NCBI RefSeq assembly: GCF_000739695.1
Contig: NZ_BBIO01000001.1
Location: 310,001-374,000, forward strand
Source of the DNA: Tepidicaulis marinus
GTDB taxonomy: Bacteria; Pseudomonadota; Alphaproteobacteria; Parvibaculales; Parvibaculaceae
Direction of reading: 5' to 3'
Length of the DNA stretch: 64,000 nucleotides
Shown: positions 1,097 to 53,331 of the stretch, one piece after another
Layout of the letters: each line of letters opens with the position of its first letter
Position numbering within the stretch: position 1 is the first letter of the stretch
The notes under the pieces: generated by a model
Told to the model about the DNA's origin: nothing
The model's database searches: none
Seen by the model: the letters and a program-made list of their open reading frames with translations, nothing else
Program-made: the position numbers and the translations under genes

Positions 1097-1522
1097 ATGG
1101 ACATGGAAAAAGAGCGCCCCTTCAGCCAGACCCTTAACCGGCTCCGCGACGCCGGGCTGCGGCCGACGCGCCAGCGCCTGGCGCTCGGCCGGCTGCTCTT
1201 TGACGGCGGCGAACGCCATGTCACGGCCGAGGTCCTTCACGAAGAAGCGACGGGTCAGGGGATTTCCGTCTCTCTGGCAACCGTCTACAACACGCTGCAT
1301 CAATTCACCGATGCCGGCCTTCTGCGGCAGGTTGTCGTGGATGCCTCGCGTACCTATTTCGACACGAACACCGACGATCACCATCACTTCTTCAAGGAAG
1401 ACGATGGCTCGCTGATGGATATTCCCGGCGATCATATCGAGGTGGCGGGCCTGCCTAAGGCCCCGGATGGCAGTGAAGTTGCCCGTGTCGATGTCATTGT
1501 GCGGCTGAAATCAGCTTCCTAA
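1097..1522 (+). CDS. irr: Fur-family iron response regulator Irr
   Basis: 141 residues. The winged-helix DNA-binding part is visible at about 18-75 (GLRPTRQRLALGRLLF; SVSLATVYNTLHQF), and the dimerisation/metal part carries the Irr hallmark FDTNTDDHHHFF with three His at 95-97, followed by the DIPGD block. Irr senses haem and iron status and controls iron and haem genes in alphaproteobacteria. The ATG at 1097 gives a family-sized product. An in-frame ATG at 1058 with AAGG upstream is an alternative, and the longer GTG-initiated form would overlap the operator at 981-995. It sits between fabA and the rubrerythrin cassette. Confidence 0.92.
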   Translation: MDMEKERPFSQTLNRLRDAGLRPTRQRLALGRLLFDGGERHVTAEVLHEEATGQGISVSLATVYNTLHQFTDAGLLRQVVVDASRTYFDTNTDDHHHFFKEDDGSLMDIPGDHIEVAGLPKAPDGSEVARVDVIVRLKSAS

Positions 1523-1560: not shown

Positions 1561-1609
1561 TTTAGAATTACTCTAAAGAGTTGACGAACTCCTTCCATGC
1601 GCTTAATCT
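1561..1609 (+). promoter_or_regulatory. Irr-box (ICE-like) and promoter for the rubrerythrin operon
   Basis: An interrupted palindrome TTTAGA-N5-TCTAAA occupies 1561-1577 and resembles the iron control element bound by Irr in Bradyrhizobium and Rhizobium. Four bases later comes a -35 TTGACG (1581-1586), a 17-base spacer and a -10 TAATCT (1604-1609). The box abuts the -35, so it could serve either activation or repression. The transcript would carry a leader of about 125 bases before the rubrerythrin start. Confidence 0.65.
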
Positions 1610-1741: not shown

Positions 1742-2161
1742 ATGTCGCTTGCAAGCAGCAAGACTCTCGAAAATTTGAAAGAAGCCTTTGCCGGTGAAAG
1801 CCAGGCGAACCGCCGCTATCTCTATTTCGCTCAGAAAGCGGATGTGGAAGGCTATAACGACGTTGCCGCCGTTTTCCGCTCCACAGCGGAAGGCGAGACG
1901 GGCCACGCGCATGGCCATCTGGAATTCCTGGAAGAAGTGGGCGATCCGGCAACGGGCGAGCCCATCGGCGATACCTCGAAAAACCTGAAAGCGGCAATTG
2001 CCGGTGAGACCCATGAATACACGGATATGTATCCGGGCATGGCGCGCACCGCCCGCGAAGAAGGCTTCGACGAGATTGCCGACTGGTTCGAAACGCTGGC
2101 CAAGGCGGAAAAGAGCCATGCCGGCCGCTTCCAGAAAGCGCTCGACAGCCTCGACAGCTAA
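1742..2161 (+). CDS. Rubrerythrin-type diiron peroxidase (no rubredoxin domain)
   Basis: 139 residues forming a single ferritin-like four-helix domain. Diiron ligands are apparent: Glu19, the pair Glu52-x-x-His55, Glu89, and Glu123-x-x-His126. The C-terminal rubredoxin domain of classical rubrerythrins is missing, as is common in alphaproteobacteria, so an external electron donor is needed. The expected role is reduction of hydrogen peroxide and protection of iron pools. The start is fixed by a strong GAGGAGGA Shine-Dalgarno. The gene is first in a three-gene cassette downstream of irr and has an ICE-like box in its promoter. Confidence 0.9.
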
Positions 2162-3647: not shown

Positions 3648-4244
3648 ATGTCTGCCGCAAAGAAACAGATCACCCGCGAGGATATTCTTCCGCTTGAAAA
3701 ATATGCCGCCGAGCGCAAAGAGCGCCGCGCCCGCATCACGCAGATGAAAAAGAACCGGCGTGTGGAAGTGGGTCCTTACGCGACATTCTATTTCGAAAAT
3801 TACGACACGATGTTTCAGCAGATCCACGAGATGCTTTACATCGAAAAGGGCGGGGAAGAACAGATCGCCGACGAGCTGAGCGCCTACAATCCCCTTATTC
3901 CGCAGGGCAAGGACCTCGTCTGTACCCTGATGTTCGAAATCGACGACCCCATCCGCCGCAACAATGTGCTGCGCCGCCTCGCCCATGTGGAAGAGCATGT
4001 CTATGTGCAGGTGGGCGATGAAAAGATCATGGCCGATGCGGAAGACGATGTGGAGCGCACCACCGAGGACGGCAAAACCTCCTCCGTGCATTTTCTGCAT
4101 TTCCGTTTCACGCCGGAGCAGATCGCGAAATTCAAGGACCTGTCCCAGAACGTGATCCTCGGCATCGGCCACGAGAATTACGGTCACATGGCGCTGCTGG
4201 CGGGGCCGACCCGCGAGGCGCTTGCCGCCGATTTCAGCGCCTGA
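3648..4244 (+). CDS. DUF3501 family protein
   Basis: 198 residues, matching the DUF3501 family by its start (ITREDILPLEKYAAERKERR) and overall length. No catalytic motif is evident. There is no signal peptide or membrane segment, so it is cytoplasmic. In other proteobacteria this family is found next to rubrerythrin and the GlpC-like Fe-S protein, as here, which points to a shared role in peroxide or iron homeostasis. Function is unknown. Spacing from the upstream gene is 8 bases, indicating co-translation. Confidence 0.85.
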   Translation: MSAAKKQITREDILPLEKYAAERKERRARITQMKKNRRVEVGPYATFYFENYDTMFQQIHEMLYIEKGGEEQIADELSAYNPLIPQGKDLVCTLMFEIDDPIRRNNVLRRLAHVEEHVYVQVGDEKIMADAEDDVERTTEDGKTSSVHFLHFRFTPEQIAKFKDLSQNVILGIGHENYGHMALLAGPTREALAADFSA

Positions 4245-51079: not shown

Positions 51080-51095
51080 TTTGATCCGGATCAAA
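51080..51095. promoter_or_regulatory. FNR/FixK-type palindrome
   Basis: TTTGATCCGGATCAAA is a perfect 16-base palindrome containing TTGAT-N4-ATCAA, the FNR/FixK/Anr consensus. It is 157 bases before the terB start. A -10-like TATCAT is at 51144-51149. It could alternatively be part of the exporter 3' end. Confidence 0.55.
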
Positions 51096-51110
51096 ACAAA
51101 TGCTGAGATG

Positions 51111-51143
51111 ACGCCGCCGAGGGACATTTGCCTTCGGCGGCGT
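51111..51143 (+). terminator. Stem-loop after the exporter gene
   Basis: ACGCCGCCGA pairs with TCGGCGGCGT (51111-51120 with 51134-51143), with a 13-base loop. Few T residues follow, so it may only partly terminate. Confidence 0.55.
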
Positions 51144-51251
51144 TATCATTTCCGGGCCGGGACGAGAACGCGGCCAGCACAGCACAGGTCAGCACAAACA
51201 GCGCTGCCGGCTGGGCGGTGCGGCAAGGGCCCCGCAAAAGGAGGAACGCAT

Positions 51252-51707
51252 ATGTTGGACCGTATCTTGAATTTTATTGCCCGGGGACCGGCAGCGCCTG
51301 CCCCGCAATTGGAAAGCGCGGCAACGCGGCGCGAGCTGGCGGCGGCGGCCTTGATGGTCGAGGCGGCCCGGCTCGACAAAAGCTTCGATGCCGCCGAGCG
51401 CGCGGCGATCATCCGCGTGGTGAAAGAGCGCTTCAGCCTGTCGCCGGAAGATGCGACCGAGCTTGTGGCGGTGGCCGAGCAGGCCGAGCGGCGCAATTAC
51501 GACCCCTGGGTCTTTGTCGAAACGGTAAAGCGGTCTTTCTCCGAGGAAGAAAAGAAGGACCTTCTGAAAGCGCTCTGGCAAGTGGCCTATGCCGATGGCG
51601 GTCTGCATAAGTTCGAGAGCTATCTCGTCAATCATGTCTCCAAGCAATTGGGCTTGAGCAAGGAAGATTGCGAAACCGCCCGCAAAGCGGCTGAAGAGGC
51701 GGCTTGA
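51252..51707 (+). CDS. TerB family (tellurite resistance-type) protein
   Basis: 151 residues, all helical. The pattern AAAALMVEAARLDKSFDAAERAAIIRVV and KKDLLKALWQVAYADGGLHKFESYLV matches the TerB fold, in which acidic Asp/Glu residues bind metal. Single TerB proteins are widespread and their function is mostly unknown; no ter operon is present. AAAGGAGG before the ATG is a very strong Shine-Dalgarno. It sits between the exporter and katA, with an FNR-type box upstream and its own terminator. Confidence 0.88.
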   Translation: MLDRILNFIARGPAAPAPQLESAATRRELAAAALMVEAARLDKSFDAAERAAIIRVVKERFSLSPEDATELVAVAEQAERRNYDPWVFVETVKRSFSEEEKKDLLKALWQVAYADGGLHKFESYLVNHVSKQLGLSKEDCETARKAAEEAA

Positions 51708-51756: not shown

Positions 51757-51787
51757 AAGGAGAGGCACTGCCTCTCCTTTTGTTTTT
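51757..51787 (+). terminator. terB terminator
   Basis: AAGGAGAGGC-act-GCCTCTCCTT, a 10-bp stem then TTGTTTTTT. A strong intrinsic terminator directly ahead of the katA promoter. Confidence 0.93.
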
Positions 51788-51861
51788 TAGAATTATTATA
51801 ATATAGCTTGACGGATGGGCGCTCACTCCTTACATTGGAATTGTTCTAAACAGAATTCCAA
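51786..51861 (+). promoter_or_regulatory. katA promoter with two operator-like sites
   Basis: -35 TTGACG (51808-51813), 17-base spacer, -10 TACATT (51831-51836). Upstream, TTTAGAATTATTATAAT (51786-51802) resembles both the ICE motif at irr-rbr and, as TTAGAATTATTATAA (51787-51801), the PerR consensus with a single mismatch. Around the start point TTGGAATT and AATTCCAA form an 8-bp inverted repeat with an 11-base spacer (51835-51861). Confidence 0.65.
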
Positions 51862-51873
51862 GGGGAATGAGCC

Positions 51874-53331
51874 ATGTCCGACACACCGCGTTTGACGACC
51901 GCCGGCGGCGCGCCGGTCGCCGATAATCAAAACTCCATGACGGCTGGTCCGCGCGGCCCGCTTTTAATGCAGGACGTGCATCTCATCGAAAAGCTCGCCC
52001 ATTTCAACCGCGAGCGGATCCCCGAGCGCGTGGTCCATGCCAAAGGTTCGGGCGCCTTCGGCACCTTCACGGTGACGAACGACATTTCCAAATACACGAA
52101 GGCGAAAATTTTCGGCGATGTGGGCAAGAAGACGGAAATGCTGGCGCGCTTTTCCACCGTGGCCGGAGAAGCGGGCGCGGCGGATGCCGAACGCGACGTG
52201 CGCGGCTTCGCGCTTAAATTCTATACCGAGGAAGGCAACTGGGATCTGGTCGGCAACAACACGCCGGTCTTCTTCATCCGCGATCCCTTGAAATTCCCCG
52301 ACTTCATTCATTCGCAAAAACGCGACCCGAAAAGCCATTTGCGCTCCGGCACAATGCAGTGGGATTTCTGGTCTCATTCGCCCGAAAGCCTGCATCAGGT
52401 GACGATCCTCTTTTCCGAGCGCGGCCAGCCGAAAACGCTGCGCCATATGAACGGCTATGGCAGCCACACCTATTCCTTCATCAATGAAGAGAACGAACGC
52501 TTTTGGGTGAAATTCCACTTCAAGACCATGCAAGGCATCGAGACCAATAGCGGCGATGAAGTGGCAAAGCTCATCGGCGAGGACCGGGAGAGCCATCAGC
52601 GCGATCTCTTCACCTCGATCGAAGAGGGCAATTACCCCAAATGGCGGCTGATGGTGCAGATCATGCCCGAGGCCGATGCGGAAAAGACCTGGTACAATCC
52701 CTTCGATCTCACCAAGGTCTGGCCGCATGGTGATTATCCGCTCATCGAAGTCGGCATCATGGAGCTCAACCGCAATCCGGAAAACTATTTCGCCGATATC
52801 GAGCAGGCCGCTTTCGAGCCCAATAACACGGTGCCCGGTATCGGCTTCTCGCCGGACAAGATGCTGCAGTCGCGTCTCTTTGCCTATCAGGATGCGCACC
52901 GCTACCGGCTCGGCGTGAACTATACGCAGATCCCGGCCAACAAGCCGCGCTGTCCGGTGCATTCCTATCAGCGCGACGGGGCGATGCGGGTGGACGGCAA
53001 TGGCGGCGCGGCGCCCGTCTATGAGCCCAACAGTTTCGGTGGGCCGGTGGACGGCGCGCGCTTCAAAGAGCCGCCGCTAAAAATTTCCGGCGACGCGGAT
53101 CATTACGATCACCGCGAAGGCAATGACGATTACCGCCAGGCGGGCGATCTTTTCCGTCTGATGAACGAGGTGCAGAAGACGCATCTCCTCGATGCCATTG
53201 CCGGCGCCATGAACGGCGTGCCGGAAGACATTCAGCGCCGCCAGATCGGCCATTTCCTGAAGGCCGACAAGGCTTACGGGGAAGGTGTCGCAAGCCGCCT
53301 CGGCCTCTCGGTTGCAGACGCCGCCGAATAG
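51874..53331 (+). CDS. katA: Monofunctional haem catalase (clade 3)
   Basis: 485 residues, small-subunit catalase length. The distal His55 is in [12 protein letters not shown], Asn128 in [11 protein letters not shown], and the haem-ligating Tyr in [14 protein letters not shown] near 338. It breaks down hydrogen peroxide. A SOD/peroxidase partner is not adjacent. GGGGAATGAGCC precedes the ATG. The promoter carries Fur-family-like and other palindromes, so peroxide or iron control is likely; an oxyR gene is not in the window. Confidence 0.96.

Follow-up and report, generated by a model that had tools for sequence, protein, structure and literature searches.

Irr, the ICE (Irr box) and the PerR regulons are already known, and the usual picture of Irr is that of an iron regulator that reads haem. 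The release of Irr by haem is likewise known Irr biology. The Irr/ICE regulon of rhizobia and Rhodobacter (bfr and blr7895/mbfA in B. japonicum, mbfA and ccpA in R. sphaeroides) has in common with the locus described here a Fur-family regulator with an HxH motif, an ICE palindrome and promoter-proximal sites (PMC3413700, PMC7762939). Some of its targets are also peroxide-related, namely ccpA and mbfA (PMC3413700, PMC7762939), whose promoters are bound by R. sphaeroides Irr (PMC3413700). However, the predicted targets in the present case are rbr-RFO-DUF3501, katA/katG, peroxiredoxin and dps, the bfd/bfr region is devoid of an ICE and irr is physically linked to rbr.

The PerR regulon, i.e. that of the B. 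subtilis type together with the already known perR-rbr operons of Desulfovibrio and Geobacter (PMC545781), shares with this locus a Fur-family regulator, a 7-1-7 palindrome and five identical metal ligands. The likeness extends to the controlled functions (catalase, AhpC-type peroxidase, Dps/MrgA and rubrerythrin) and to a regulator gene that adjoins rbr (PMC545781). In contrast to PerR, the regulator is here an Irr by sequence, the box is an ICE and not TTATAATNATTATAA, and the peroxide response is a predicted one. The OxyR peroxide regulon covers the same functional gene set but belongs to a different protein family, and OxyR is absent by homology from the host, Tepidicaulis marinus. Furthermore, the three-gene operon is the same as the RBR-RFO-DUF3501 cluster of aerobic-type rubrerythrins described by Cardenas et al. 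(2016, PMC5114695). A term search of that paper returned no Irr, PerR or other regulator named for the cluster; the linkage to irr and the ICE are added here.

The box at rbr and further candidate operators

The window, i.e. the whole stretch of 64,000 nucleotides that was analysed, carries fabA in divergent orientation at 247-768, followed by irr and the rubrerythrin operon:

1097..1522, + strand: irr, Fur-family regulator of 141 aa (PF01475; PerR 2FE3 alignment; conservation)
1561..1577, no strand: predicted ICE (Irr box) TTTAGAATTACTCTAAA, one mismatch to TTTAGAANNNTTCTAAA, conserved at orthologous loci
1581..1609, + strand: rbr promoter, TTGACG (1581-1586), 17-bp spacer, TAATCT (1604-1609), 3 bp downstream of the ICE
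1742..2161, + strand: rbr, aerobic-type rubrerythrin of 139 aa without rubredoxin domain (PF02915; compare PMC5114695)
2272..3639, + strand: RFO, CCG-domain Fe-S protein (PF02754; synteny)
3648..4244, + strand: DUF3501 protein, third gene of the operon (PF12007)

The initial annotation had described a TTTAGA-N5-TCTAAA motif just downstream of irr. An exact copy does occupy 1561-1577, 38 bp past the irr stop codon (which ends at 1522), and it differs from the fuller ICE consensus at one position. The promoter TTGACG-17-TAATCT named in the same annotation also lies downstream of the motif, but the gap to its -35, given as four bases, measures 3 bp. The window contains no second exact match to TTTAGA-N5-TCTAAA. 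Only two places across all 3.48 Mb of the genome match the ICE with one mismatch or none, the rbr site and C35:91072. The chance probability of such a match is below 5e-5 when the intergenic region is represented by a Markov model, and 5e-4 for its AT-rich core.

The second of these places lies within the promoter of a 2-Cys peroxiredoxin gene (prx). The prx box is found just inside the -35, in the -35/-10 spacer, in 30/30 family orthologues examined, with four mismatches at most and three or fewer in most of them. When the threshold is set at two mismatches, the host regulon, as taken from genome pattern matches only, includes eight places: prx (C35:91072), rbr, dps (C35:95492, where the ICE adjoins the -35), katA (two), one Fur-like box and two sites inside genes. 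The katA locus is also located in the window:

51786..51802, no strand: candidate katA ICE 1, TTTAGAATTATTATAAT, two mismatches, 5 bp before the -35, conserved in the family
51808..51836, + strand: katA promoter, TTGACG-17-TACATT
51834..51850, no strand: candidate katA ICE 2, ATTGGAATTGTTCTAAA, covering the predicted start site and the last part of the -10, at a distance of 48 bp from ICE 1
51874..53331, + strand: katA, haem catalase of 485 aa (ORF, translation, family orthologues)

Such paired ICEs, with a spacing of 46-48 bp, occur in all 12 family catalase loci that have a readable upstream region. Elsewhere in the family, ICEs are also found upstream of dps, katG, pntA and a gene for an outer-membrane protein. 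Beyond the family, 10 more distant irr+ genomes contain 16 places within one mismatch, compared with 2 for the control pattern. Fifteen of these places were read, and 12 of them precede rbr (7), dps (3), katA (1) or a gene for a di-heme cytochrome c peroxidase (1); gene names in these genomes, like those of prx, katG, dps and pntA, were largely assigned by eye from translations. ICE sites at peroxide-defence genes therefore recur across the family and partly beyond it, and one operator is common to catalase, AhpC-type peroxidase, Dps and rubrerythrin, as in a PerR-type regulon.

The direct link between an iron regulator and rubrerythrin that had first been put forward is supported by the identity of the motif, its placement relative to the promoter, its conservation next to irr and the exact match between presence of the box and presence of the regulator across genomes, but it was too narrow, katA, prx and dps being concerned as well. 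Since ICEs are also found at these three promoters, the likely biology moves away from plain iron control and towards a PerR-like response to peroxide.

Several other matches and neighbouring genes were recorded. An ORF directly upstream of katA (window 51081-51707) encodes a TerB-like small protein, identified by eye. In two family members (L169 and L242), an ICE precedes the pntA transhydrogenase gene, and a weaker match is found in the host at G000:C36:15116; control of pntA by Irr could provide NADPH for peroxide reduction. One genus of the family (L232, L234 and L235) has a conserved ICE before a gene for a small outer-membrane beta-barrel-like protein. Genes for rpoH-like sigma factors likewise have ICE-like palindromes upstream, both in the host (G000:C38:80790-80806, L119, TTTGGAATTAATCCAAA) and in Pelagibius (L254:1501-1517, TTTGGAAAAGTTCTAAA). 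A second dps-like gene (C46:127612) was rejected as a target, its best match being a poor one with three mismatches, and the ICE-like matches C18, C45 and L262 were discarded because they lie inside coding sequence.

The regulator, its signal and the direction of control

The window's Irr has a Fur-family fold (PF01475, 70 bits) and an HxH/His-cluster motif formed by His95-His96-His97; the genome encodes three Fur-family proteins, and this Irr is distinct from the others. Alignment with PerR (2FE3) indicates that all the regulatory ligands are kept, H37, D85, H91, H93 and D104 of PerR corresponding to H41, D89, H95, H97 and D108, and these five metal ligands are identical in 73/73 Irr homologues. 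The structural CxxC zinc site is found in 0/73 of them and, therefore, Irr is not filed as a PerR but only as working like one. Unlike Irr of the Bradyrhizobium type, the protein does not carry the haem-regulatory motif: no Cys-Pro was found near the N terminus in any of the 73 homologues, and the window's Irr is devoid of any cysteine.

OxyR is the usual sensor of peroxide. No recognisable OxyR-grade homologue was detected in the host genome, which is 99.98% complete. Such a homologue is missing in most family members tested and present in 8/8 Irr-less genomes tested. The Fisher test gives P=0.0017 for this contrast, uncorrected for shared ancestry; on the opposite side, 4/14 irr+ genomes also have OxyR. 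Given that the host has no recognisable OxyR and that ICEs are found at rbr, katA, prx and dps, Irr probably runs its peroxide defence.

We consider it likely that Irr works in a PerR-like manner, repressing a peroxide-defence regulon until it is released by haem and/or peroxide. An Irr dimer, produced from the adjacent upstream gene, would bind the palindrome at 1561-1577 and, being placed directly against the -35, would repress rather than activate the rubrerythrin/RFO/DUF3501 operon. It would likewise repress katA (two boxes bracketing the promoter), the 2-Cys peroxiredoxin gene (box in the -35/-10 spacer) and dps through their ICEs. Haem loading and/or peroxide oxidation at the PerR-type His/Asp metal site would then release Irr, so that peroxide scavengers would be produced whenever the cell has iron or haem at its disposal or peroxide rises. 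Release by peroxide would here be haem-free. The five PerR ligands are also present in B. japonicum Irr, which undergoes peroxide-dependent oxidation at His63, the equivalent of PerR His37 (PMC4700492). However, B. japonicum Irr generates peroxide through a cysteine haem-regulatory motif that is missing from the window's Irr, which argues against the PerR-like reading. A further point against it is that, although katE rose in an irr mutant of R. sphaeroides, this effect was regarded as indirect (PMC3413700).

Alternatively, Irr could be a pure iron/haem regulator as in rhizobia, devoid of peroxide sensing, the link of its regulon to peroxide following solely from the iron or haem content of the enzymes. 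The HxH motif through which Irr is known to sense haem (PMC7762939) is present here, and catalase, rubrerythrin and Dps all use iron. However, the thiol peroxiredoxin, which uses no iron, carries a conserved ICE, whereas the host bfd/bfr region has no ICE (five mismatches for the best match); together with the lack of an OxyR-grade regulator in the host, this makes purely iron- or haem-driven control somewhat unlikely, without depriving it of all weight.

The direction of control has also to be considered. The boxes adjoin the -35 at rbr, dps and katA, fall in the spacer at prx and cover the start region at katA; together with the strong core promoter of rbr, these positions make a repressor role of Irr the most likely. 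Yet the rbr ICE, with its centre near -47, lies upstream of the -35, a placement that would be compatible with activation as well. Irr could thus contact RNA polymerase from this site and raise rbr expression when iron or haem is low. Its gap to the -35 is nearly fixed, TTGAC being found exactly 3 bp after the ICE in 46/65 aligned relatives and being followed after 16-18 bp by a -10-like hexamer, and Irr is known to activate or repress according to the position of the ICE (PMC7762939). The main counter-evidence to repression is the 1.57-fold increase of the rbr transcript of Pelagibacter ubique on iron limitation (PMC2864753), which is opposite to simple repression by an Irr active at low iron and would fit activation or another regulator. 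However, rbr promoters have a full TTGAC -35 and normally spaced -10-like hexamers instead of the weak -35 that is usual for activator-dependent promoters, and the prx box in the spacer and the second katA box over the start region are in repressor positions. Hence, activation of rbr by Irr appears unlikely, and repression is retained as the preferred reading.

Conservation of the box and its co-occurrence with Irr

About 110 related rubrerythrin loci were gathered, and 68 dereplicated irr-rbr intergenic regions were used for the dyad search. The order irr-rbr-RFO-DUF3501 is kept in many alphaproteobacterial lineages, including, according to record titles, Parvibaculum, Sneathiella, Pelagibius, Magnetovibrio, SAR116 and Pelagibacteraceae. 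The initial annotation had proposed to look for the motif upstream of orthologous operons, and a prior-free search did recover it: TTAGA-N5-TCTAA is the commonest 5-bp dyad, found in 35/68 regions, while no dyad exceeded 3 in any of 200 shuffled sets. An ICE with two mismatches or fewer occurs in 51/68 regions (shuffled mean, 0.2).

The box also follows the regulator when the two genes are separated. Among 18 genomes in which rbr has no adjacent irr, an ICE precedes rbr in four, which are exactly the four that encode Irr elsewhere, and 14/14 others have neither (P=3e-4); this count leaves out six further loci without adjacent irr, and two of the four ICE genomes are less typical, L075 having a divergent Irr (37% identity) and a differently placed ICE and L056 matching the ICE only at four mismatches. 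Irr orthologues score 91-201 bits, compared with about 25-50 bits for the remaining Fur-family (Fur/Zur-grade) matches. A palindrome within one mismatch of TTTAGAANNNTTCTAAA is therefore found close to the promoter, conserved in orthologous promoters of genomes with Irr and lost in those without it, which supports 1561-1577 as a predicted and deeply conserved Irr operator.

Since Fur-family boxes share one 7-1-7 palindrome framework, the site could instead be bound by the host Fur (or Zur). The genome encodes three Fur-family proteins, and the Fur-like box TGAGAATNATTCTCA, located near genes for a TonB receptor and a flavoprotein, differs from the ICE at only two symmetric positions. However, genomes that have other Fur-family proteins but no Irr also have no ICE before rbr, and the box, besides being linked to irr, agrees with the ICE at the distinguishing positions. 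Ownership of 1561-1577 by Fur was rejected on this co-occurrence of ICE and Irr and appears very improbable. Loose matches (three mismatches or fewer) are not enriched genome-wide (48, compared with 73 for the reversed control pattern) and, therefore, the case rests on match quality (one mismatch at most), position and conservation. A chance AT-rich palindrome beside irr, with which the lack of enrichment of loose matches would agree, is contradicted by the conservation seen across the 68 dereplicated loci, where shuffled controls give almost nothing, and is hardly credible.

Other upstream elements were observed in these comparisons. In Pelagibacteraceae (L098-L103), two weaker ICE-like boxes lie upstream of rbr, the first ahead of the -35 and the other 14 bp upstream of the start codon. 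Several Irr-less genomes (L071, L105, L111 and L057, several titled sphingomonads) carry a different, TTGCGAATNATTCGCAA-like palindrome before the rbr operon, which is possibly a Fur box replacing the ICE. In other Irr-less genomes (L036, L040, L042 and L049, several with Phenylobacterium or Caulobacteraceae in their titles), the region upstream of rbr contains repeats of the ATAG/CTAT type that recall OxyR sites and, where tested, these genomes encode OxyR. Finally, irr is preceded in the window, at a distance of about 100 bp, by a perfect 7-1-7 palindrome, TTGTAATGATTACAA (981-995), and TTGTA-N5-TACAA dyads recur upstream of irr in 13/68 relatives. This suggests that irr may itself be under the control of a Fur-family regulator.

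Implications for Irr and peroxide defence

In the literature searched, which did not cover key regulon work of 2006, we found no report of an Irr regulon of the PerR type that includes a linkage of irr to rbr, and priority is therefore uncertain. Tentatively, in alphaproteobacteria without OxyR, Irr could be viewed as the principal sensor of peroxide. An ancestral PerR-like role, based on metal-catalysed oxidation at the His/Asp site, would then have been preserved in the irr-rbr linkage, and the haem-based iron control of rhizobia would be a later specialisation.

A conserved regulon of peroxide scavengers under Irr boxes, found in bacteria devoid of OxyR whose Irr retains all the PerR metal ligands, could help to explain the altered peroxide resistance of irr mutants elsewhere. 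Furthermore, it would give the widespread aerobic rubrerythrin operon a regulator and open the evolutionary relationship of Irr and PerR to direct testing.
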